Positions 18,555 to 45,127 of a stretch of DNA of 64,000 nt are shown in pieces. Made by a program: the position numbers and the translations under genes. Positions within the stretch are counted from its first letter, which is position 1. Each line of letters begins with the position of its first letter. The notes below the pieces were generated by a model, which saw only the letters and a list, made by a program, of their open reading frames with translations, made no database searches and had not been told where the DNA came from. Source of the DNA: Lactimicrobium massiliense (GTDB lineage: Bacteria; Bacillota_I; Bacilli_A; Erysipelotrichales; Erysipelotrichaceae); assembly GCF_900343155.1 (NCBI RefSeq), contig NZ_OUNG01000006.1:124001-188000 (forward strand), written 5' to 3'.

Positions 18555-19037
18555 TTGACAGCAAAAAGGCCGACATTCCGTGTGATGAAGAATGGATATG
18601 ATCGTTTTGCGGTGGATGATGCTGTCGAGAAGTATGCTGCCCAGGTAGATGAGCTGGAAAAAAGAATTGCTTTGTACCAGCAGCAGGCAGCTGAGGATGC
18701 TGCCCGTCTGGATGACATGCAGAAAAAGTACAACGCAGTGCTGCAGAATATGCAGGCAAAACAGGCAGCGGCGGATGATATCGCCAGACTGTCCCTGCGG
18801 GAAGCCAATGAGATTATCTCAACTGCACAGAACAATGCGGATGAGATCATCCGTGAAGCACTTGGCACCGCCCGTCTGATTCTGATGGACCTGTCAAGAC
18901 TGTACAATTCTGCCGGTGATGTCAAGACGGACATGAAGAAGGAGCTCAGTGATCTGCAGGCAGAGCTGGATAAATTCCAGCTGCCAAAGATGCCGGATCT
19001 GCGCTGGCTGGATGAAGCAGAGAAGAAAATGCGTTGA
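18555..19037 (+). CDS. divIVA: DivIVA-domain protein
   Basis: A 160-residue coiled-coil protein that recognises curved membrane at poles and septa. The N-terminal motif RVMKNGYDRFAVDDAVEKY matches the DivIVA membrane-binding segment, followed by long heptad repeats. TTG at 18555 is favoured, with GAGAGGTGA just upstream; a GTG at 18546 lies inside that Shine-Dalgarno. Last gene of the sepF cluster, just before the ileS T-box. Confidence 0.85.
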   Translation: MTAKRPTFRVMKNGYDRFAVDDAVEKYAAQVDELEKRIALYQQQAAEDAARLDDMQKKYNAVLQNMQAKQAAADDIARLSLREANEIISTAQNNADEIIREALGTARLILMDLSRLYNSAGDVKTDMKKELSDLQAELDKFQLPKMPDLRWLDEAEKKMR

Positions 19038-19038
19038 T

Positions 19039-19231
19039 CAGGACGCGCTTGCCTTTAGCAGCACTCTAGAGAGTCTGTGGATGGTGGAAACAGACATGTG
19101 GAAAAGAGCAAGACATCACCTGTGAGCAATCGTGCATTCCGCGTTAAGGAATAAGTGAGGGCATGGCATTCTGCCATGAACTAAGGTGGTACCGCGCTGA
19201 CAGCGTCCTTAGAGAATGGGACGCTTTTTTT
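19039..19231 (+). promoter_or_regulatory. T-box riboswitch controlling ileS
   Basis: The leader binds uncharged tRNA-Ile and antiterminates. The T-box sequence AAGGTGGTACCGCG is at 19183-19196. The Stem I distal hairpin is GTCTGT...ACAGAC (about 19073-19095) with the AGAGAG bulge. The candidate specifier is ATC (19115-19117), just before ACCTGTGAGC and matching an Ile codon. A terminator follows at 19202-19231. Identity of the specifier is by position only. Confidence 0.92.
19202..19231 (+). terminator. T-box-controlled terminator
   Basis: AGCGTCC (19202-19208) pairs with GGACGCT (19219-19225), followed by TTTTTT. Its 5' side is downstream of the T-box bulge, so it competes with the antiterminator. 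Confidence 0.9.
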
Positions 19232-23969: not shown

Positions 23970-24066
23970 TTCTTTATCGCTGTCAGCTTTACCACCTTAC
24001 CGGTGTGTCACGGCAGGCTGGTATGGGATCACAGAGCTGACTCTCTCACCCATTCTTGATAAAAGA
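23970..24066 (-). promoter_or_regulatory. SAM-I-clan riboswitch upstream of metK, lacking P4
   Basis: On the minus strand the leader reads TTTATCAAGA (SAM-I start consensus), a P2 with TGGG/CCCA and kink-turn-like GA/TGTGA, a P3 closed by ACC/GGT, then GTAAGGTGGTAAAGCTGAC. P1 pairs CTTTTATC with GATAAAG (one bulge). L2 GTCAGCT is perfectly complementary to AGCTGAC (23982-23988), the expected pseudoknot. P1 follows that strand after three bases, so no P4 helix can be drawn. Downstream, GAAAGAG/CTCTTTC forms a hairpin without a T-run, suggesting control of the Shine-Dalgarno rather than termination (inference). Confidence 0.8.
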
Positions 24067-32226: not shown

Positions 32227-32770
32227 ATTTTGCAAAGCAGATGGCAAAGAAGCCGCATACGCCAAAACATAAGCATAGCTCTGCCAGACCCGTGATGGCA
32301 TCATATGTCACGATCAGCAGTACTGCTGCAAACAGGCAGGCAAGATACCACATCCATGCATTCCTGTTGAGATCACGCAATGCATACAGAAAATACTGCA
32401 GCAGGATAAATGCAGCCAGAGCGAGCAGAATATGCATCTGTGCTGAAAGAGACGCAGAATGCGAATATGGCATGCAGATGGCACTGACCATCAGCACTGC
32501 CAATAGGATGATCAGAAACCTTTCGTGTTTTATGACACTGTTCTTCTGCAGCATATGGATTGCATGCAGGCACAGCAGCCCGTCAAGACAGGTAATCATC
32601 AGGATTGCCGGACGCCAGGAAGGCATCTGCAGCAGTCCGGTCCAGTTGTATCTGATGGGATTGCTGAGCAGCAGAGGAAGAGCAGTGATCACAGGGGCGA
32701 TGATCCCGCAGAGAATCATATTTGCTTTTTTTGGTGCTGGCAGAAACAGTTTTGTCATACTATCATTCAT
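32225..32770 (-). CDS. Hypothetical multi-pass membrane protein
   Basis: About 181 residues with five to six hydrophobic segments (LCGIIAPVITALPLLL, AILMITCLDGLLCL, FLIILLAVLMVSAI, a long ILLALAAFILLQYF, MWYLACLFAAVLLIV, CLCFGVCGFFAI). The general layout resembles DUF998-type proteins, but I do not recognise it firmly. It is divergent from pheA; starts at 32779, 32770 or 32758 are possible and none has a good Shine-Dalgarno. Confidence 0.6.
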   Translation of the reverse strand: MNDSMTKLFLPAPKKANMILCGIIAPVITALPLLLSNPIRYNWTGLLQMPSWRPAILMITCLDGLLCLHAIHMLQKNSVIKHERFLIILLAVLMVSAICMPYSHSASLSAQMHILLALAAFILLQYFLYALRDLNRNAWMWYLACLFAAVLLIVTYDAITGLAELCLCFGVCGFFAICFAK

Positions 32771-32793
32771 TATATCCATTCAAAGGAGACATT

Positions 32794-33618
32794 ATGAAGA
32801 CAGTTGGCATGCAGGGAGCACATGGTACTTTCAGTGAAATGGCCGTGTATCAGTACTTTGGCAAAGACGGCATTGCGGCAAAGGGATATCGAAACTTCGT
32901 GGAAATCATGCAGGATCTGGAAAACCATGCGATTGATGATGCTGTTCTGCCGGTAGAAAATACAACGACCGGCATCATTGCGCGCACCTATGATCTGTTC
33001 AAGTACTATCACGTCCATGCCGTTGGCGAAGTACTTGTCCCGATTGTGCAGGATCTGATCACATTACCAGGTGCCTCTTTGTCTGATATCAAAGAAGTCT
33101 ATTCTCATCCGGAGGCACTCTCTCAATGCCAGGGGTTCTTTGAGGCACATCCTGACATTCGCTCTGTTCCTTACCAGGATACGGCAAAATCCGTGGAATA
33201 TATTAAAGCCTGCAAAGATATCTCCAAGGCCGCAATCGGCTCTTCTGCTGCTTCTGCGTATTACCATCTGCCGGCATTATGCCATGCTATTCAGGATTCC
33301 AAAACAAATACGACCCGCTTTCTTGTTGTGACATGGAAGGACGATATCCCGGCAGATGCCAACAAGACGAGCCTGATGCTTGTTATCAATCATGAACCAG
33401 GCTCTTTGTACCGTGCACTTGCCTCACTGGCAGATAAACAGATCAACATGGTAAAGCTGGAAAGCAGACCGATCCCAGGCAAGATGTTCGAATATCTGTT
33501 TTATGTCGATATCATGGGGACACCGGCGGATCCTGTGGTCAAAGAGGCACTGGCGCAGATGAAGAAGTACTGCGTGGAACTCCGCAGTTTTGGCTCTTAC
33601 CGTGCCGCATCTTTGTAA
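32794..33618 (+). CDS. pheA: Prephenate dehydratase
   Basis: A 275-residue monofunctional enzyme converting prephenate to phenylpyruvate. The dehydratase domain starts GMQGAHGTFSEMAV and includes PVENTTTGII, HPEALSQCQGFF and the catalytic TTRFLVV. A C-terminal ACT domain (ALASLADKQINMVKLESRP) is the expected Phe-binding regulator. There is no chorismate mutase domain. The ATG at 32794 follows AAAGGAGAC at normal spacing. It lies just upstream of the aro operon but is separated from it by a promoter and an attenuator. Confidence 0.95.
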   Translation: MKTVGMQGAHGTFSEMAVYQYFGKDGIAAKGYRNFVEIMQDLENHAIDDAVLPVENTTTGIIARTYDLFKYYHVHAVGEVLVPIVQDLITLPGASLSDIKEVYSHPEALSQCQGFFEAHPDIRSVPYQDTAKSVEYIKACKDISKAAIGSSAASAYYHLPALCHAIQDSKTNTTRFLVVTWKDDIPADANKTSLMLVINHEPGSLYRALASLADKQINMVKLESRPIPGKMFEYLFYVDIMGTPADPVVKEALAQMKKYCVELRSFGSYRAASL

Positions 33619-33639
33619 CATTCTTTCAGAAATATCTGA

Positions 33640-33668
33640 TTGCCTTTTCAGAAAGCCGGACTTATAAT
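33640..33668 (+). promoter_or_regulatory. Promoter of the aro operon leader
   Basis: TTGCCT (33640-33645), 17-bp spacer, consensus TATAAT (33663-33668). A start 7 bp downstream falls on the A of the leader ATG at 33675. Confidence 0.7.
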
Positions 33669-33674
33669 TGGCCC

Positions 33675-33716
33675 ATGAGCAAAACATACAGAACTTGCTT
33701 TTATTACTTTAGATAG
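33675..33716 (+). CDS. Aromatic leader peptide of the aro operon
   Basis: A 13-codon frame, MSKTYRTCFYYFR-stop, too short for ordinary ORF calling. Five of 13 residues are Tyr or Phe, four of them consecutive near the end. It lies between a consensus promoter and an attenuator terminator before aroB. No Shine-Dalgarno is seen; the predicted transcription start coincides with the ATG, so initiation would be leaderless. Codons 9-12 (33699-33710) are where a ribosome short of Phe- or Tyr-tRNA would stall. Confidence 0.7.
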   Translation: MSKTYRTCFYYFR

Positions 33717-33810
33717 CCCGGGCGATTGAAAGATATTGCCCGTTTCGTGATGAATCCGGCATTATCTGATGGAAAGCAAGATCTTACGAGCCATACGGAT
33801 GATGCCGTAT
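33709..33810 (+). promoter_or_regulatory. Alternative helices of the aro attenuator
   Basis: Segment ATCCGGCATTAT (33754-33765) pairs with ATGATGCCGTAT (33799-33810): 11 of 12 positions pair, one as G-U. This uses the loop and 3' arm of the terminator, so the two cannot coexist. Segment TTAGATAG (33709-33716, the leader's last codons) can pair with TTATCTGA (33762-33769), competing with the antiterminator. CGGGC (33719-33723) can also pair with GCCCG (33738-33742). Confidence 0.65.
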
Positions 33811-33820
33811 GGCTTTTTTT
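33789..33820 (+). terminator. Attenuator terminator before aroB
   Basis: AGCCATACGG (33789-33798) pairs perfectly with CCGTATGGCT (33805-33814), loop ATGATG, then seven T. It ends 15 bp before aroB and lies inside the leader, downstream of the aro promoter. Confidence 0.9.
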
Positions 33821-33835
33821 GTTCAAGGAGGAACA

Positions 33836-34843
33836 ATGGAAATCGAGGTAAAGACAAAACAGAAACAGTATACTGTCATGCTGGAACGCGGTCTGCTGCA
33901 GAAGGCATCCACCCTGATCGGCCGTCATGGCCATGTCTATCTTGTTTCAGAAGACGGTGTGCCTGCTGCCTTCCGCAATACGCTGCAGCAGCAGTACCCG
34001 GAGGCTGCCATGTATGTGTTTCCGCATGGTGAACAATCCAAGAATCTGACAACCTGGCAGCAGATTCTCAAAGATATGTTGGAGCATGATCTCGGCCGAA
34101 AAGATACCGTGATTGCATTAGGAGGCGGCGTCACCGGCGATATGGCAGGTTTTGCGGCCGCAGCCTACATGCGCGGGATTCCGTATATCAATATCCCGAC
34201 GACCTCACTTGCCATGATTGATTCTTCCATCGGCGGCAAGACTGCCGTTGACTTCAATGGCGTCAAAAACAGCATCGGTGCGTTCTGGCAGCCTGATCTG
34301 GTTCTGGTAGATCCCGATCTGCTTGCCCCACTGCCTGTGCGTCATCTGCACAATGGCCTGGTGGAAGCAGTCAAAGAAGGACTGACCTTTGATCCACAGC
34401 TGTTTGCCATCTTTGAACACGATGACTATCTGGATCATATTGATGAAATCATTGCACGCTGTCTGCAGATCAAAAGAGATGTCGTGGAGCAGGATGAACG
34501 GGAAGGCGGCATCCGCAAACTGCTGAATTTCGGTCATACATACGGCCATGCCCTGGAATCCTACTTTGGCCTGAACGGTTATTACCATGGAGAATGTGTC
34601 GGCATGGGCATGATGATGATCATGAATAACCCAGAGCTGAAAATACGCTTGCAGGCAGTGCTGGAACGGATGAACTGCCCGGTTTCCTGCACATATGATC
34701 CTGAAGCTGTCTATCAGCTGTTATGCCATGACAAGAAGGCAGACCATGATCATGTCACAATTGTGCAGGTAGATGAGATTGGCAAAGGCCATCTGGAAGA
34801 CTGGCCGCTGCCAAAACTGAAAGAGAGGCTGTACCATGAGTAA
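33836..34843 (+). CDS. aroB: 3-dehydroquinate synthase
   Basis: A 335-residue NAD- and zinc-dependent enzyme turning DAHP into 3-dehydroquinate. Motifs are GGGVTGDMAGF (NAD site), IPTTSLAMIDSSIGGKTAVDF in two halves, the metal-ligand EAVKEGL and FGHTYGHALE. The ATG at 33836 follows CAAGGAGGAACA; a longer in-frame reading extends into the terminator. First enzyme gene of the operon, overlapping aroC by 8 bp. Confidence 0.96.
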   Translation: MEIEVKTKQKQYTVMLERGLLQKASTLIGRHGHVYLVSEDGVPAAFRNTLQQQYPEAAMYVFPHGEQSKNLTTWQQILKDMLEHDLGRKDTVIALGGGVTGDMAGFAAAAYMRGIPYINIPTTSLAMIDSSIGGKTAVDFNGVKNSIGAFWQPDLVLVDPDLLAPLPVRHLHNGLVEAVKEGLTFDPQLFAIFEHDDYLDHIDEIIARCLQIKRDVVEQDEREGGIRKLLNFGHTYGHALESYFGLNGYYHGECVGMGMMMIMNNPELKIRLQAVLERMNCPVSCTYDPEAVYQLLCHDKKADHDHVTIVQVDEIGKGHLEDWPLPKLKERLYHE

Positions 34844-35933
34844 TACTTTCGGCAGACATTTGAAAATCACGTTGTTTGGAGAAAGCCACGGACCATCCAT
34901 TGGCGCCATACTGGATGGCCTGCCAGGCGGTGTGAAGATTGATGAGGAATACATTGCCTCACGCATGCAGCTGCGCAGGGCAGTCGGTACAATCTCCACC
35001 GCACGGCAGGAAGCCGATCAGGTTCATATTCTGTCCGGTGTCAAAGACGGATACAGCGAGGGAACACCCATTGCCCTTGTGATCGACAACAGCAATGTAC
35101 ATTCCAAAGACTATTCATCCCTGGCAGATCTTGCCCGTCCAGGCCATGCGGACTATACCGGCCACATCAAGTACGATGGCTTCGAAGATCCCCGCGGCGG
35201 CGGTCATTTCTCCGGCCGTCTCACCGCACCGATCACAGCCTGCGGAGCAATTGTCCAGCATATGCTTGCTGAAAAAGGAATTCTCTGCGGCAGCCATATC
35301 AGACAGCTTCATGGCATTGATGATCTGCCATTTGACAGCGAACATCTCAAAGAGCAGATCAGCCAGCTGAACCAGAAACAGTTTGCCGTGCTGGATGATA
35401 TGGCTGCCAAAGCCATGCAGGCAGAGATTGAAGCAGCCAGAAAACAGCTGGATTCTGTCGGCGGCATCCTGGAAACAGCCGTCATCGGGCTGCCGGCAGG
35501 ACTTGGCGAGCCGGAGTTTGACTCTATTGAAAGTCAGCTTGCCCATGGTATTTTCTCCATTCCGGCTGTCAAAGGCATCAGCTTTGGTGAAGGCTTTGGC
35601 TTTGCAGGCATGAAAGGCTCGCAGGCAAATGATGCCTTCTGCATCAGAAACGGAAAGATTGAAACGGTGACCAATCACAATGGCGGCATCAATGGCGGTA
35701 TCACCAACGGCATGCCTGTTCTGTTTCAGACTGTCATCAAGCCAACACCGTCCATTGCGCAGATTCAGGATACCGTTAACTTTGTAACGAAAGAAGAAAC
35801 GAAGATTGCCATTCATGGCCGCCACGATCCAGCCATCATCCACCGGGCAAGAGTGGTTGTCGACAGTGTAGCCTGTCTTGTCATGGCAGACTTCATGATG
35901 GAACGATTTGGCAGGGAGTATTTTCACGGATGA
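34836..35933 (+). CDS. aroC: Chorismate synthase
   Basis: A 365-residue FMN-dependent enzyme making chorismate from EPSP. It has GESHGPSIGAILDGLPGG at the start, RPGHADYTG, the GGGHFSGRLTAP motif (with Arg) and GRHDPAIIHRA. Coupled by overlap with aroB upstream and with aroEK downstream (ATGA at 35930). Confidence 0.97.
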   Translation: MSNTFGRHLKITLFGESHGPSIGAILDGLPGGVKIDEEYIASRMQLRRAVGTISTARQEADQVHILSGVKDGYSEGTPIALVIDNSNVHSKDYSSLADLARPGHADYTGHIKYDGFEDPRGGGHFSGRLTAPITACGAIVQHMLAEKGILCGSHIRQLHGIDDLPFDSEHLKEQISQLNQKQFAVLDDMAAKAMQAEIEAARKQLDSVGGILETAVIGLPAGLGEPEFDSIESQLAHGIFSIPAVKGISFGEGFGFAGMKGSQANDAFCIRNGKIETVTNHNGGINGGITNGMPVLFQTVIKPTPSIAQIQDTVNFVTKEETKIAIHGRHDPAIIHRARVVVDSVACLVMADFMMERFGREYFHG

Positions 35934-37165
35934 AACTGGGACTGATTGGTAAAACGCTTGGCCATTCATGGTCATGGCAGATTCATGATATGCTGATCCA
36001 TGAACACTACCAGAACTGGGAACTGTCAGAAGATGAAGTGATTCCGTTTCTGGAAAAGAAAGATTTTACGGGTATCAATGTCACGATTCCATATAAAGAA
36101 AAAGTGATGACGGTGCTGGATGAAATCAGCCCCACGGCCGAAAAGATCGGTGCCGTCAACTGCATCATCAACCGTGATGGCAGGCTGTATGGCTATAACA
36201 CAGACTGTGATGGATTTATGGAACTCGTTAAAACAGCCGGCATGCATATGGAAGGAAAGCATGCGGCGGTGCTTGGCAGCGGCGGTGCTGCCAAGGCCGT
36301 CATGACCGGTGTATCACAGCTTGGCGGCATACCGGTGATGGTATCCAGGCATCCCCATGATGACATGATCAGCTACCAGCAGATGTATGCCATGCAGAAC
36401 CGTTTTTCCTTCCTGGTCAATGCAACACCGGTTGGCATGTTTCCGCATATGGATGAAACACCGGCGGATCTGGATGTCTTTGAACATCTGGAAGGGGTTG
36501 TGGATGTCGTTGCCAACCCGCTGCGTACAAAGCTCTGCTTTCAGGCATCCTGCAAAGGCATTCCCTCGACGGGCGGGCTTGGCATGCTAGTATATCAGGC
36601 AGCCGCAGCTGATGCCCTGTTTACCGGGCAGAAAGTCCCGCAGGAGCGTATCGATGCCTGCCTTGGCACACTGCTGAAAGAGCGCCGCAATATCGTGCTG
36701 ATCGGCATGCCGACATCTGGCAAAAGCAGCGTGGCACAGATGCTTGGCAAGCAGAGCGGCCAGCAGGTATACGACATGGATACACTGCTGGAACAGCAGC
36801 TTGGCACCAGTATCCGCACATGTTTTGAAACCCATGGTGAAGCATATTTCCGTGCAAAGGAAACCAGACTTGCCAGAGAACTTGCAAACAAAGAAGGCGT
36901 GATCATCTCCTGCGGCGGCGGCATTATCAAAAATCCGGAAAATATGCAGGTGTTATCACAGCATGGCGTGGTTGTGTGGCTGCAGAGAAACAGTTTGTTT
37001 CCAAGCAGTGACCGGCCGTTAAGTGCTGATGAGGCTTCGCTGAAAAAGCTTTATGAACAGCGCAGAGGGCTGTACGAAATGTACAGTGATATCCAGGTGG
37101 AAAACAATGGCACTCTGGAAGATACAGCAGAACAGATACTGAAGAAGATTGGAGAACGAAAATGA
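35930..37165 (+). CDS. aroEK: Shikimate dehydrogenase - shikimate kinase fusion
   Basis: A 411-residue bifunctional protein covering two shikimate steps. Residues 1-250 are Aro[10 protein letters not shown] (shikimate site, Trp where Pro is usual), NVTIPYKE with the catalytic Lys, YNTDCDG with the catalytic Asp, GSGGAAKAV nucleotide loop and [11 protein letters not shown]. Residues ~254-411 are Aro[12 protein letters not shown]-loop, [27 protein letters not shown] and the RPL lid. The frame is continuous through the junction without a stop. It overlaps aroC and aroF by 4 bp each. Confidence 0.93.
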
Positions 37166-38181
37166 TCATCACATTAAAGAAAGATGCACCTGAACAGGAA
37201 GTTGCGAAGATCCGCGCCAATTTCGAGAGTAAAGGCCTGCGGGTCAATATGATTCTTGGCGAAGACTTCAACGTCTTCGGCCTGGTAGGTGATACCGCCC
37301 ACCTGGATGAACGTGACATTCTGGCCAATGAATGGGTTGAGAATGTCCAGAGAGTTTCCGCACCGTATAAGCTGGCCAACCGCATGTTCCATCCCCAGGA
37401 TACAATTGTCAATGTTGCCGGCATTCCAATCGGCGGCAAAGAACCGGTTGTGATTATGGGCGGCCCGTGTTCTGTAGAAGGAGAAGAGCAGGTTGTCCGT
37501 ATTGCAAAGGAAGTCAGGGATGCCGGCGGATGCATCCTGCGCGGCGGTGCATACAAGCCTCGTACTTCACCATACTCTTTCCAGGGACTTGGCTATGAAG
37601 GCATCCTGGACATGGTCAAGGCACGTGAAAAGACAGGCATGCCGATCGTTTCTGAACTGATGAGCGCTGAGCACATTCCGGAATTCGAAGAAAATGTCGA
37701 TCTTGTCCAGATCGGGGCCAGAAACATGCAGAACTTTGATCTGCTTAAGGCTGTGGGCAGAATGAAGAAACCGGTGCTGTTAAAGCGAGGGATGTCCGCA
37801 ACAATTGAAGACTGGATCATGAGCGCTGAATATATCATGGCTTCCGGTAATCCCAATGTCATACTGTGTGAAAGAGGTATCCGCACATTTGAGAAATATA
37901 CCCGCAACACCATGGATCTTGCCGTCATTCCAATCATCAAGGAAAAGACACATCTGCCGATTGTCATCGATCCTTCCCATTCCACCGGCGACTGGAAGTA
38001 TGTGGAAGCCGTATCACTGGCTGCGGTGGCAGCCGGTGCAGATGGCCTGATCATTGAAGTACATGATCATCCTGAATGTGCATGGAGCGATGGTGCCCAG
38101 TCACTCAAGCCGGAAAAGTTTGCCCATCTTGTGAAGCGCTGCCGCAGAGTGGCAGAAGCGGTTGACCGTGAAGTCAGATGA
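37162..38181 (+). CDS. aroF: DAHP synthase (type I-beta)
   Basis: A 339-residue first enzyme of the pathway (PEP + erythrose 4-phosphate). The N-terminal ~70 residues form the ferredoxin-like regulatory domain found in Thermotoga-type enzymes. The barrel follows with [46 protein letters not shown] and IDPSHSTGD. Tyr/Phe feedback through the N-terminal domain is known for relatives. ATGA overlaps on both sides. Confidence 0.95.
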
Positions 38182-39446
38182 ACGTCACTGTCTCAAAAGG
38201 AAACCTGCATGACTTTTCTGTCTGTCTTCCTGCCAGCAAGTCCCTGTCCCACCGGGCACTGATTGCGGCTGGATTAAGCAGCACGGCATGCCGCCTTCAT
38301 CATGTGGCCGACAACAACGATACTTCGGCAACCATGCACGCACTAAAGATGCGCGGCGCCTCCTTTGCAAAAGATGGAGAAGACTGGCTTGTACATGGCT
38401 GCAGTCATGGTGCAATTCCTGCGCAGCCCATTGACTGCGGTGAGTCCGGCAGCACACTTCGTTTTCTGATTCCTCTGTTTGCTGCCCAGCCCGGTACCGC
38501 AGCGTTTACAGGACATGGCCGGCTGATGCAGCGGCCTCAGTCTGTTTATGCAGATCTTTTTGCAAAACAGGGTCTGCGCTTTGAAAAACAAGGTGACATT
38601 CTATATGCAGAAGGACCATTGTCCTGCGGTACGTATCAGGCGGCAGGAGATGTTTCCAGCCAGTTTATCAGCGGCCTGCTGTTTGCACTGCCGCTGCTGC
38701 CTGGTGAAAGCCGGATTATCGTTTCAGAACCCTTTGAATCAGAAAGCTATGTCGGTCTGACACTGGATATCCTGCATAAAGCAGGCATCCGTGTGAACCG
38801 GCAGGGCAATACCTTTACAGTCCCGGGGAATCAGGCCTATCACATGCCCGCGTATACGGTGCCGGGTGATGACAGCCAGGCAGCGTTCTTTGCGGCTCTG
38901 GCTTTGATCAGCGGCAAAGACGGTGACATCCTCAACATGGACCATGACTCTCACCAGGGTGATCATGTCATACTGGATCATATGCGTGCCTTTGGCGCCG
39001 AAGTGAGCGAAATTCCCAATGGCTACCATATCCATGCCGCTGATCCACATGGGGCTGTGATTGATCTGGGGGATTGTCCGGATCTAGGCCCGATGGAATT
39101 TGCCATGGCCGCCTGTGTCAAGGGTGACAGTACATTTCTGCATGCAGGCAGACTGCGCATCAAGGAAAGTGATCGGATTGCCTGTATGAAGGAAGAAATG
39201 GCAAAGCTTGGCTGTATGCTGGAAGACGATGGTGATACAGTATACGTACACGGCGGGAAGGGCGCCCTGCGGCCATCAGCAGTGCTTGGCCATAACGATC
39301 ATCGCATTGTCATGGCATTAAGCATTCTGGCAGCCTGCAGTGAGCAGCCCATCACGATTGAAGATGCCCAGGCAGTAAACAAAAGCTACCCGGACTTCTA
39401 TCAGGACCTCGCCCGTACAGGAGCGAAGATTTCATATGATCACTGA
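38178..39446 (+). CDS. aroA: 5-enolpyruvylshikimate-3-phosphate synthase
   Basis: A 422-residue enzyme joining shikimate 3-phosphate and PEP. Landmarks are [17 protein letters not shown] with the catalytic Lys, [16 protein letters not shown], the [15 protein letters not shown] helix, KESDRI and [11 protein letters not shown]. The PEP loop reads GESGSTLRF, unlike the GNAGTAMR of class I and GNSGTT of class II. It overlaps aroF (4 bp) and tyrA (11 bp). Confidence 0.94.
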
Positions 39447-40308
39447 CACAACCGTATTTGGCATCATCGGTTTAGGTGTTCTTGGCGGCAGCTATGCCAA
39501 GGCACTTTCCGCAAAACACTACAAAGTGCTTGCTGTTGATATTAATACATCCGCTCTGCAGGAAGCTGAAAAAAACGGCTGGATTACGGAAGGCAGCACG
39601 GATCCATCTCTTCTGTCTGCCTGCGATATTGTCGTTTCCTGTCTGTATCCACATACATTCATCAACTGGCTCAAAGAGCATCAGGATGTATTGAAATCCG
39701 GGTGTCTGCTCAGTGATGTGACAGGCGTCAAGCGTGAGGTCATGCAGGCAGTCAATCAGCAGCTGCGCAAAGACGTTGAGTATATTGCCTGCCATCCTAT
39801 GGCGGGAAGGGAAAGCCGCGGTCTTGCCTATGCAGATGAAAAGCGATTCCTTGGTGCCAACTTCATCATCGTTCCTGGCGAAAACAATACGGCTGCTGCG
39901 ATTGCCACAGCCCATCAGCTGGCAGAAATTCTTGGCTTTTCACGCATCGCAGAACTCAGCCCGGAAGAACATGACCGCATGATCGGCTTTCTGTCACAGT
40001 TAACACATGTCATTGCTGTTTCCCTTATGAATGTGGCAGACAATACACATCTGGCTGCCTATACAGGTGATTCCTTCCGTGATCTGACCCGTATCGCCAA
40101 CATCAATGAAGAACTGTGGCCGGAGCTGTTTGTGCTGAACAAGGATAATCTGAGCCGTGAAATTGATGCCTTTGTGGCAGAGATGAAGTCGTTTGAAAAG
40201 CTGATTCAGGATGAGGATTATGACCGCATGAAACAGAAGCTCATACTGGCAACAAAGCGGCGTAAAGCTTTTAACAAGGATCAGGAAAAAGGAGAAGAAA
40301 AGAAATGA
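39436..40308 (+). CDS. tyrA: Prephenate dehydrogenase
   Basis: A 290-residue NAD(P)-dependent enzyme toward tyrosine. The Rossmann motif GLGVLGGSYA is at the start. CHPMAGRESRG and LSQLTHVIAVSLMN, with the catalytic His, follow. No ACT domain follows, so feedback by Tyr would have to come from the catalytic domain or from transcription. Overlaps aroA by 11 bp and aroQ by 4 bp. Confidence 0.94.
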   Translation: MITDTTVFGIIGLGVLGGSYAKALSAKHYKVLAVDINTSALQEAEKNGWITEGSTDPSLLSACDIVVSCLYPHTFINWLKEHQDVLKSGCLLSDVTGVKREVMQAVNQQLRKDVEYIACHPMAGRESRGLAYADEKRFLGANFIIVPGENNTAAAIATAHQLAEILGFSRIAELSPEEHDRMIGFLSQLTHVIAVSLMNVADNTHLAAYTGDSFRDLTRIANINEELWPELFVLNKDNLSREIDAFVAEMKSFEKLIQDEDYDRMKQKLILATKRRKAFNKDQEKGEEKK

Positions 40309-40748
40309 AGCTGATGGTGCTGAACGGACCGAATCTGAATATGGTCGGCATCCGTGAAAAGGGTATTTATGGGACGGTGTCTTATCAGTGCATGATCGAG
40401 ATGATCAAGCAGGAAGCAGAGAAGAGAAAGATTGAAGTAGACTGCCGCCAGTCCAACCATGAGGGAGATCTGGTAGACTGGATTCAGGAAGCGTACTTCA
40501 ATGGCTATGACGGCGTGGTCATGAATCCGGGTGCTTATACGCATACAAGCATTGCCATTGCCGATGCCGTAAAAGCCATTGCACCGATTCCGGTTGTGGA
40601 GGTTCATATCAGTGATATCAACAGCCGCGAAGAATTCCGCCATCACAGTTATGCTGCTCCATACTGTCTTACCCAGATTAAGGGCCATGGCCTTGCAGGT
40701 TATGTAGACGCAATGGATGCGATTGCAGCAGCCAAAGCAGGGAAGTAA
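40305..40748 (+). CDS. aroQ: Type II 3-dehydroquinate dehydratase
   Basis: A 147-residue dodecameric-type dehydroquinase. LNGPNLNMVGIRE, the catalytic Tyr in GIYG, CRQSNHEGDLVDWIQ, MNPGAYTHTSIAI and EVHISDINSREEFRHHS with the catalytic His are all present. Last gene of the operon, which therefore holds all seven shikimate steps plus tyrA. No obvious strong terminator follows. Confidence 0.97.
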   Translation: MKLMVLNGPNLNMVGIREKGIYGTVSYQCMIEMIKQEAEKRKIEVDCRQSNHEGDLVDWIQEAYFNGYDGVVMNPGAYTHTSIAIADAVKAIAPIPVVEVHISDINSREEFRHHSYAAPYCLTQIKGHGLAGYVDAMDAIAAAKAGK

Positions 40749-40810
40749 GATTCTCTGTTTTTTTTCGGGCGGTAAAAGGTACAATAAACACGAGAGGCAA
40801 GTGAAGAAGA

Positions 40811-41557
40811 ATGAAATACAAAGTCTGCAGAGGGTGCGGCACCCGTGTTCCTATGTCCAAAGAGAAATGCCCGGTTTGCGGCACCACAGATTTTACGATT
40901 GTCGATGAGCCGGAGGAAGAAACCCAGACACTGGACTGGGCACCGGATGGCAGTGACAATACAACCAAGCTGTTTCCCTTGACAGGAAACCATCATACTG
41001 TGCAGCGTGATCCAGAAGATGATGCAGCGCAAAAACCATCAAAGAAACAGATGCCGAAGAAGAAAAAGACACCGAAAAAGAAAGCGGAAACAAGGAAAGC
41101 ATCTGAAAAGGGGGAACATACCGGTGTGAACTTCGAACATCTGCTGAAGCGTTTTCCGCCTGTCACGCGGGTGCTGATCATGATCCTGAGCGCACTTGTC
41201 GTGATTGTGCTGGTTGTCGGTATCGTGGCAGCTGTATCCAGAAAACCGGCAAAGACGGCTGTTGCTTCAGCTTCTCCAACTGCAGGTGCTACGGCATCCG
41301 CAAGTGCCCAGGCTGCCGGAGAAACTGCCAGAGCCGATGGCCAGCCGATTGGTAAAGCTGTCATTACTGCGGATACGATCAAGATCAGAACCGAGCCCAA
41401 TACGGATGCCGGTGTGCTTGGCATTGTGCAGAAGGATGATCAGTATGATGTTTATGAGATTGAAACAGATGGCAGCTATACATGGTACTGTATCGGCAGT
41501 GAGAAATGGATTGCGGATGATGGCGGTGAATGGGTGACATATACAGCTGGTGAATAA
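40811..41557 (+). CDS. Zinc-ribbon, single-pass membrane protein with extracellular SH3b domain
   Basis: A 248-residue protein. The N-terminal cytosolic zinc ribbon is CRGCGTRVP...CPVCGTTD. A Lys/Pro-rich linker (PKKKKTPKKK) and one membrane helix near residues 117-138 (VLIMILSALVVIVLVVGIVAA) come next. A Ser/Ala/Thr-rich spacer leads to a C-terminal SH3-like domain (ITADTIKIRTEPNTDAGVLG) of the kind that binds cell wall. TACAAT (40780-40785) may be its -10. Specific role unknown. Confidence 0.72.
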   Translation: MKYKVCRGCGTRVPMSKEKCPVCGTTDFTIVDEPEEETQTLDWAPDGSDNTTKLFPLTGNHHTVQRDPEDDAAQKPSKKQMPKKKKTPKKKAETRKASEKGEHTGVNFEHLLKRFPPVTRVLIMILSALVVIVLVVGIVAAVSRKPAKTAVASASPTAGATASASAQAAGETARADGQPIGKAVITADTIKIRTEPNTDAGVLGIVQKDDQYDVYEIETDGSYTWYCIGSEKWIADDGGEWVTYTAGE

Positions 41558-41643
41558 GCTGGAAATTTGGAAAGACTGACTGAAAATGCTAGAATATGGT
41601 CCATGTCGGGCTGTATGTCTGATGTTGGGATATTTAGCAGAAT

Positions 41644-42000
41644 ATGAAGAAGAAAGAAATTAAGATTTTAATTGTGCTGGTGGTGGCGGCTGTGGCTGCC
41701 CTGGGCATCATCAAACTGATACAGAAGAAAAATGCTGGATCTGGGGTGACGGTTGCGATCTATTACCGCGATCAGATTGTGAAAGAGTTTGATCCTGCCA
41801 AGGATGCGGTTTATACCGTTAAAGGTGACTATGGGACCCTGGATGTAGAGGTAAAGGATGACAAGTGGCATGTGACCAATGAAGAGTGCCCGAATCATAT
41901 CTGCCATCAGATGGGCTGGGTTGGACCTGGCGAATATCTGCCGATCACCTGCCTGCCAAACAACATTGTGGTTGTGCAGGAGGGTTCATCCAGCAAATGA
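41644..42000 (+). CDS. NusG domain II (NusG_II) membrane-anchored protein
   Basis: A 118-residue protein with an N-terminal membrane anchor (ILIVLVVAAVAALGIIKLI) and an extracytoplasmic NusG_II-type domain containing VTNEECPNHICHQMGWV with two Cys. TAGAAT preceded by TGC, about 50 bp upstream, may be its -10. It overlaps the next gene by 4 bp (ATGA). The pair NusG_II plus Gx transporter is common in Bacillota. Confidence 0.82.
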   Translation: MKKKEIKILIVLVVAAVAALGIIKLIQKKNAGSGVTVAIYYRDQIVKEFDPAKDAVYTVKGDYGTLDVEVKDDKWHVTNEECPNHICHQMGWVGPGEYLPITCLPNNIVVVQEGSSSK

Positions 42001-43856: not shown

Positions 43857-44909
43857 TCATGAGCTATATGCCTCATAGAGGTTAATTGGCATTTTAAGCT
43901 TTGGGATCTCCGCACAGGTAAATGGAATCTGTTCAAACATTGTTTCCATGTATGCTTCTGATTTCCATTTGCGCATGTCCAGCCTGTACTTTAAATATTT
44001 CTTCATGACGATCCAATTCAAATAACCCTGGAGATGTCTTGTGCTGATACCATGTTTCTGCCTGATCATGTTTTTTAGCTCAGAGTGAAGCTCGTTTACT
44101 TCAGATACTGTATTGCCCTTTGGTGTTAAATAACCGTTAGATGGAATAATGTCACTGTTGAAGTGATTATCGCCCACGAAAGTTTGAATGCTATGGCTGT
44201 CATCACTGATAATTGTTGAATGCGCTGCGAAGTGAGAGCTGTATTGATTCAGAATTTCTGCACTCTCTCTGCCTAATCCTCCAATTTTAAAGAGAATATT
44301 GTCATGCTCATCAATAGCTGTTACCAGGCAGATCTTGTGATGGCTGGTGCCAGGTAAAGCACGCTTGGTTGAATGACGGCGATGCTTTCCACGCTGTTTG
44401 CTGAATCTTGGCATTTTATCCTTCCTGGTCCCTTTCAGGTTGATTTTGGTATAAGTAGGATCCAATTCAACATTTCCACTTAAGACCACATTATTCTGAA
44501 TCTTTGCTGCAGCCTGATATAACTTGTGACGCATGTTGAAGCAGGTAGTAACTGATAAGCCTGTAGCTACACTCTGCTGAGTCAGAGTCATTCCGTTAAG
44601 CTCGCCAGAGATAAAAGTAGTCCAGATATCAAAGCTTGTTCTGGAATGAGTAAACATCGTACCTGTTGTTGCCATAAAAACAGATTTGCATTTTTTACAT
44701 CTGTATTTCTGACGATTATGTGGGTTAAAGCCATTCTTAACAAAGTGAGTTGAACCACAATGAGGACATTTCTCAACATGCAAAGAGAGATTCTCGTAAT
44801 TTGTTGTCGTACAGTTTACTTTCTCTCTGAATAGCTTTTCTAAACCAACACGAATGAATTCAATTTCGACAGGAGATAAAGAATTCAGGAAATTCTGATT
44901 AACGAGCAT
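43857..44909 (-). CDS. IS1595-family (ISXO2-like) transposase
   Basis: A 350-residue transposase. The N-terminal zinc ribbon is CPHCGSTHF...YRCKKCKSVF; a helix-turn-helix-like region follows (LTQQSVATGLSVTTCFNMRHK). The ISXO2-like DDE domain includes VELDPTYTKINLKG, IISDDSHSI and the NELHSELKNMIRQKHG block with His-Ser-x-Leu-Lys. Full length, no frameshift. GAGGTGATG upstream of the ATG serves as RBS. Confidence 0.92.
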   Translation of the reverse strand: MLVNQNFLNSLSPVEIEFIRVGLEKLFREKVNCTTTNYENLSLHVEKCPHCGSTHFVKNGFNPHNRQKYRCKKCKSVFMATTGTMFTHSRTSFDIWTTFISGELNGMTLTQQSVATGLSVTTCFNMRHKLYQAAAKIQNNVVLSGNVELDPTYTKINLKGTRKDKMPRFSKQRGKHRRHSTKRALPGTSHHKICLVTAIDEHDNILFKIGGLGRESAEILNQYSSHFAAHSTIISDDSHSIQTFVGDNHFNSDIIPSNGYLTPKGNTVSEVNELHSELKNMIRQKHGISTRHLQGYLNWIVMKKYLKYRLDMRKWKSEAYMETMFEQIPFTCAEIPKLKMPINLYEAYSS

Positions 44910-45053: not shown

Positions 45054-45127
45054 TGGAGCAGACGACGGGAATCGGACCCGCGTATTCAGCTTGGGAAGCT
45101 GACATTCTACCATTGAATTACGTCTGC
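45054..45127 (-). tRNA. tRNA-Gly (anticodon CCC)
   Basis: Acceptor GCAGACG/CGTCTGC, encoded CCA, anticodon stem-loop TCAGC-TTCCCAA-GCTGA giving CCC. It decodes GGG. A dedicated CCC glycine tRNA is often absent when the UCC species wobbles. Confidence 0.95.

Follow-up and report, generated by a model that had tools for sequence, protein, structure and literature searches.

A putative Phe/Tyr leader-peptide attenuator in front of the shikimate operon of Lactimicrobium massiliense and its relatives

The shikimate operon of Lactimicrobium massiliense is preceded by an RNA element that is almost certainly real and that is kept across the family in front of aromatic-biosynthesis genes and related transporter genes. 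From the sequence, we consider it very probable that this element is a ribosome-mediated transcription attenuator, which would sense the charging of Phe- and Tyr-tRNA and control the shikimate/Phe-Tyr operon. The gene order is pheA, then the leader, then aroB-aroC-aroE/K fusion-aroF-aroA-tyrA-aroQ. All coordinates refer to the window, the whole stretch of 64,000 nucleotides that was analysed. The leader and its operon are composed as follows.

33640-33668, + strand: promoter, with -35 TTGCCT (33640-33645), a 17-nt spacer and -10 TATAAT (33663-33668); predicted +1 at about 33675
33675-33716, + strand: leader ORF MSKTYRTCFYYFR-stop, ATG to TAG, 13 residues
33709-33716, + strand: segment A, TTAGATAG, leader end and stop codon; pairs with segment C at 33762-33769, blocking the antiterminator
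33719-33726/33735-33742, + strand: hairpin H, 8 bp, between segments A and C
33731-33740, + strand: H3, the 3' arm of hairpin H; alternative partner of C with 9/10 pairs in the window and one U-U mismatch
33758-33767, + strand: segment C, GGCATTATCT, the switching strand, which can pair with A, with H3 or with the terminator loop
33758-33766/33798-33806, + strand: antiterminator, GGCATTATC/GATGATGCC, which excludes the terminator
33789-33820, + strand: intrinsic terminator, 10-bp stem AGCCATACGG (33789-33798)/CCGTATGGCT (33805-33814), seven T at 33814-33820
33826-33833, + strand: aroB Shine-Dalgarno site AGGAGGAA, immediately 3' of the terminator; predicted anti-SD pairing -11.2 kcal/mol
33836-40748, + strand: aroB-aroC-aroE/aroK fusion-aroF (DAHP synthase)-aroA-tyrA-aroQ, with an NCBIfam match for each gene

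The promoter matches the consensus at 10 of 12 positions and is the top-scoring + strand site within 32500-41800 (9.3 kb). A -35/-10 pair is found upstream of nearly all homologous leaders. The leader ORF begins 56 nt after the end of pheA. Its regulatory codons are TTT TAT TAC TTT, with a further TAC at codon 5, and it is the sole + strand ORF of 8-25 codons in the 64 kb that carries at least five Phe/Tyr among its last nine residues. The competing helix A:C (33709-33716 with 33762-33769) has eight pairs, two of them G-U. The terminator is strong and is the only long one in the 9.3 kb scanned. The minimum free energy of 33675-33820 is -50.0 kcal/mol compared with -29.6 +/- 3.7 kcal/mol in shuffles (z -5.6, 0/200), and the conservation of the element in genus and family, described below, decides that it is real. 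Downstream, the seven operon genes overlap or are tightly spaced, and all belong to the pathway towards Phe and Tyr. The AroE-AroK fusion of shikimate dehydrogenase and shikimate kinase (35930-37165) also occurs in the family member L139. Among the operon genes, none was recognised as a chorismate mutase.

The initial annotation had already described much of this arrangement. The TATAAT promoter was found at its place base by base, and the 13-codon aromatic frame, the 10-bp terminator with its seven-T run and the eight-pair competition of the leader end for 33762-33769 were all recovered. The antiterminator proposed there, 33754-33765 with 33799-33810, holds with its core at 33758-33766/33798-33806, and the complete shikimate operon is borne out by the NCBIfam matches for every gene. 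Hairpin H, the missing leader Shine-Dalgarno site and the position of the AUG at the predicted +1 had gone unmentioned.

The aromatic run is a property of the reading frame. Codons -7 to -2 of 47 distinct leader ORFs are 84% Phe/Tyr in frame, compared with 18% for the same codon window in the two other frames and 41% expected from the same bases shuffled. Aromatic counts in these 47 leaders are 122 Phe, 142 Tyr and 0 Trp. Differences between close pairs of leaders are mixed, with 34 synonymous codons, 22 Phe/Tyr exchanges and 48 other changes. Arg (AGA) predominates at position -1, which the AGATA strand of the RNA explains. A chance U-rich ORF is ruled out by the frame, shuffle and homolog tests.

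The helices are conserved as structures as well. Across 52 distinct sequences, the three modelled helices are paired in 94.8% of cells with 128 double-change cells vs 26 shuffled, in an alignment that was fitted to these helices themselves. The unfitted genus alignment gives 92.9% paired and 21 double-change cells vs 6.6 shuffled. The A:C core AGATA:TATCT is paired in 94.6% of cells (52 distinct sequences), hairpin H shows double changes at 7/8 pairs and the terminator stem covaries at all 10 pairs. Outside the model, the antiterminator helix of C with the terminator loop is paired in 89.3% of cells with 11 double-change cells vs 2.8 shuffled, and H3:C covaries across the family (17 cells vs 5.2 shuffled); both values lie above nearly all shuffles. 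The antiterminator helix shows no double changes within the genus alone. Locus L074 retains a perfect GGTGTTATC/GATAACACC antiterminator pair. Segment C covaries with A, with H3 and with the terminator loop, and therefore appears to choose among three partners.

The comparison of relatives suggested in the initial annotation has thus been made: the aromatic run and both mutually exclusive helices are kept, with compensatory changes, and a terminator kept after loss of the aromatic frame, which was named there as the outcome speaking against attenuation, is seen at no strong match. The in-frame Phe/Tyr run together with the covarying exclusive helices in relatives strongly supports the Phe/Tyr attenuator reading made there.

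In the mechanism that we propose, the polymerase would start at the leader AUG or very close to it, with ribosomes translating MSKTYRTCFYYFR in its wake. When charged Phe- or Tyr-tRNA runs short, the ribosome would stall in the F-Y-Y-F run and cover segment A, C would then pair with the terminator loop and the operon would be transcribed. With ample charged tRNA, the ribosome would reach the stop codon and leave, A (H3 in most relatives) would capture C, and with C captured by either partner the terminator would form ahead of aroB. Without translation A:C would form too, and transcription would end. We infer the stalling, the kinetics of the choice, the leaderless initiation and the response to amino acids alike.

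Folding with a masked ribosome, which treats equilibrium only and assumes free RNA from 12 nt after the first base of the A-site codon, predicts changes in the direction of this scheme. For the full-length window RNA, the terminator probability is 0.98 with no ribosome and 0.96 with a ribosome at the stop codon. A stall in the middle of the run lowers it to 0.31, with the antiterminator at 0.67; a stall at the first aromatic codon gives 0.38, and one at the last aromatic codon 0.88. Mean terminator probabilities in the congeners are 0.87 with no ribosome, 0.95 at the stop, 0.60 mid-run and 0.83 at the first aromatic codon. Other genera show a smaller predicted swing (0.77 stalled mid-run vs 0.92-0.94). 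In window RNA of intermediate length the antiterminator forms with or without the ribosome, giving no discrimination. H3:C is negligible in the window RNA and is not predicted to form in this masked folding. The direction of the predicted changes supports classical attenuation.

The leader AUG in the window has no Shine-Dalgarno site, and most leaders of the genus lack one too. In the window, 6 nt separate the -10 box from the AUG, which lies at the predicted +1, and the transcript is therefore expected to begin at the AUG. Judged by this predicted promoter position, the window leader is probably leaderless. Within the genus, anti-SD pairing of the leaders has a median of -2.8 kcal/mol (5/31 at or below -4), compared with -10.0 for the downstream gene. 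In other genera the median is -6.5 kcal/mol (18/21 at or below -4), and most have a Shine-Dalgarno site. The gap from -10 box to AUG is 6-9 nt in about 15 of the 52 leaders and 12-25 nt in most others. A transcript starting at the AUG of its leader ORF, and hence leaderless, has been described for trpL of S. meliloti (PMC7298713).

Relatives were fetched by an AroB search, and a covariance model was built from 16 congeneric leaders. Counting the locus of the window itself, the leader lies just upstream of aroB in 17 of the first 24 congeneric loci, with peptides such as MKTIRNTYFYFTFR, MNTKASLFYFYFR, MKTFRSYYYYYVG and MKTQMFFFYYFR. Six congeners have pheA immediately next to aroB and lack both the leader frame and the terminator. 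The model finds 31 strong matches in 70 genomes of the genus. Outside the genus, 18 genomes from 10 genera of the same family (Erysipelotrichaceae-type) have strong matches, and weaker matches with fitting leaders add about five further genera, giving about 15 other genera of the family in all. The sister family gave no match to the model, and neither did any genome beyond the family in a sample of 395 from the class; the faster filters run on large genome sets lose some weak matches. The strong matches all precede aroB-aroC except L072, which stands before aroF-tyrA. A weaker match, L139, lies upstream of an aroE-aroK gene with the leader MKQTSSKFYFYFR. Other weaker matches lie upstream of PF04392 ABC substrate-binding proteins, assigned by Pfam for L082, L133 and L137 and by likeness for others. 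Phe or Phe/Tyr leaders precede such genes at L082, L084, L090 and L133-L138, and in genus g39 some leaders before PF04392 genes carry the pure Phe run SFFFFFR. The leaders on PF04392 genes suggest a role in aromatic amino-acid uptake.

Weak matches without a fitting leader were not counted as members (L085, L086, L087, L088, L089, L091-L093, L132, L140). L086 and L087 stand before SBP_bac_3-type amino-acid binding proteins, with a conserved GAGGCGTTATCT and a terminator. They have no aromatic run at the expected place; MPKEIKWQFCFLGL is a candidate in L086. These elements may be a different attenuator. In two congeners (L091, L092), aroC lies 3' of a weak match with E of about 0.005-0.02, and no aromatic leader is recognisable upstream.

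The leader could also be one that binds a metabolite or a tRNA in the manner of a riboswitch or T-box, with an incidental or vestigial ORF. We hold this to be very improbable. The window ORF does lack a Shine-Dalgarno site, T-boxes stand on pheS, tyrS and trpS in the same genome, and a T-box precedes the aro operon of the sister family in the two genomes read. But a Shine-Dalgarno site precedes the ORF in most other genera, and conservation tracks the reading frame, with Phe and Tyr interchanging and their codons varying synonymously. There is no large aptamer, the conserved RNA being the switching strands, and neither this leader nor six relatives yield an Rfam match at threshold. At gathering and at relaxed thresholds, Rfam searches in the same sequences gave chance-level matches only, such as Qrr with 22.6 bits against a cut-off of 50, on which grounds a riboswitch or other known RNA family is rejected. 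Among Rfam leader families (for example Phe, Trp and His leaders), no covariance-model match exceeds the gathering score. A T-box (RF00230) in the aro leader is rejected as well, since the search that has no match there does detect T-boxes at other places in the window and genome.

The 20 T-box matches of the L. massiliense genome lie before transporters and before synthetase genes, among them tyrS, pheS and trpS, but not before the aro operon; these downstream genes were named by eye from their proteins, except L122. The latter, a PF04392 homolog, carries a T-box instead of a leader peptide. In the two sister-family genomes read, the T-box lies before the aro operon aroF-aroB-aroA-aroC (L025:153-403 and L027:178-420). 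With a T-box there and a putative attenuator here, the same pathway would therefore be under different charging sensors in neighbouring families.

Still less credible is a translated leader that responds to general ribosome traffic or to a drug-stalled ribosome of the macrolide type, and not to the supply of Phe and Tyr. Any stall ahead of the stop codon would free segment C likewise, yet the six-codon stretch is 84% Phe/Tyr family-wide, and the targets are aromatic-biosynthesis and PF04392 transporter genes, not resistance genes. That the terminator merely ends the pheA transcript, with constitutive readthrough into the aro operon and coincidental helices and ORF, would fit a strong terminator and a pheA gene ending 56 nt before the leader ORF, but is the least probable of all given the promoter between pheA and the leader ORF, the homologous elements before aroF-tyrA, aroEK and PF04392 genes and the covarying antiterminator.

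In 21 of 31 congeneric leaders, a near-palindrome, CTGAAAA-N1-3-TTTTCAGAAAA, immediately precedes the -35 box. In the window it lies at 33619-33655, with TTTCAGAAA at 33624 and 33646 and nowhere else in the 64 kb. It is also present at homologous positions in L002, L004, L013, L095, L097 and others, and further copies lie before a PF04392-like gene (L151), a transporter-like gene (L161) and a regulator-like gene (L152). The conserved TTTTCAGAAAA motif resembles the CodY box. Control by CodY through this motif was rejected: CodY is absent from 16/16 genomes examined, and the window has no excess of CodY-like boxes. The near-palindrome possibly marks a second, protein-mediated control. Three other features of the window are listed below.

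19025-19213, + strand: T-box leader before an ileS-like gene
23971-24065, - strand: SAM riboswitch (RF00162)
43857-44909, - strand: transposase-like ORF with a zinc-ribbon-like N-terminus, near a tRNA gene (45057-45127)

A wider reading can be offered tentatively, at somewhat less than even chances: the family may have an aromatic attenuation regulon, comprising biosynthesis and PF04392 uptake, that replaces the T-boxes of related bacteria, and one genus of it may have shifted from Shine-Dalgarno to leaderless initiation. If so, a leaderless start would mean that the leader is read only on transcripts from its own promoter, and transcripts reading through from pheA would be terminated by default. 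Leaders that have a Shine-Dalgarno site and leaders that lack one together form a test set for how leaderless translation keeps up with the timing of attenuation. The element adds a well-conserved RNA with a predictable input, the charging of Phe- and Tyr-tRNA, to a group in which T-boxes are normally credited with amino-acid control, and the two tRNA-charging sensors on the same pathway in sister families invite a natural comparison.

The type of mechanism is classical and known from trp, phe and his, while the particular RNA element is apparently undescribed; no description was found in the open-access literature, to which the search was confined. The initial annotation knew of no described Phe/Tyr leader-peptide attenuator on a whole aro operon in this group. 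Leader-peptide attenuators have already been reported for Erysipelotrichales his operons (PMC9413887) and a Phe uORF for Acholeplasma aroF (PMC8632094), so that what looks undescribed is the particular element. The latter, uORFC-13-1, is the nearest report: it too has a Phe-codon uORF followed by a terminator, on a shikimate gene of a low-GC Gram-positive lineage. Its description (PMC8632094) is confined to Acholeplasma and environmental sequences, where it occurs solely on aroF and has an RBS and one or more Phe codons. Compared with that description, the present element lies on aroB operons and has typically 4-6 Phe/Tyr codons and a switching strand with three partners. The his-leader attenuators of Erysipelotrichales, the B. 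cereus group and Peptostreptococcaceae (PMC9413887) are likewise classical leader peptides on biosynthetic operons without T-boxes, partly in the same order; they differ in their His codons and his operons, and no aromatic case was found there. Leader peptides replacing T-boxes in Firmicutes are also known for hisS/hisZ (PMC2965389). The trpL attenuator of S. meliloti (PMC7298713) shares the leader peptide and the leaderless start, which is predicted here, and differs as a Trp leader of Alphaproteobacteria with trpE(G) as target. T-boxes likewise sense tRNA charging but bind the tRNA directly and have no ORF. With the enterobacterial pheA (PheL), trp and his attenuators, the element has in common a leader peptide of product codons followed, ahead of a biosynthetic operon, by an antiterminator and a terminator that exclude each other. 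In contrast to them, its sequence is unrelated, Phe and Tyr codons are mixed, a whole shikimate operon is the target and a leaderless start is predicted. With its extra hairpin and chain of strand exchanges, it is closer to the his leader than to the simpler trp scheme.
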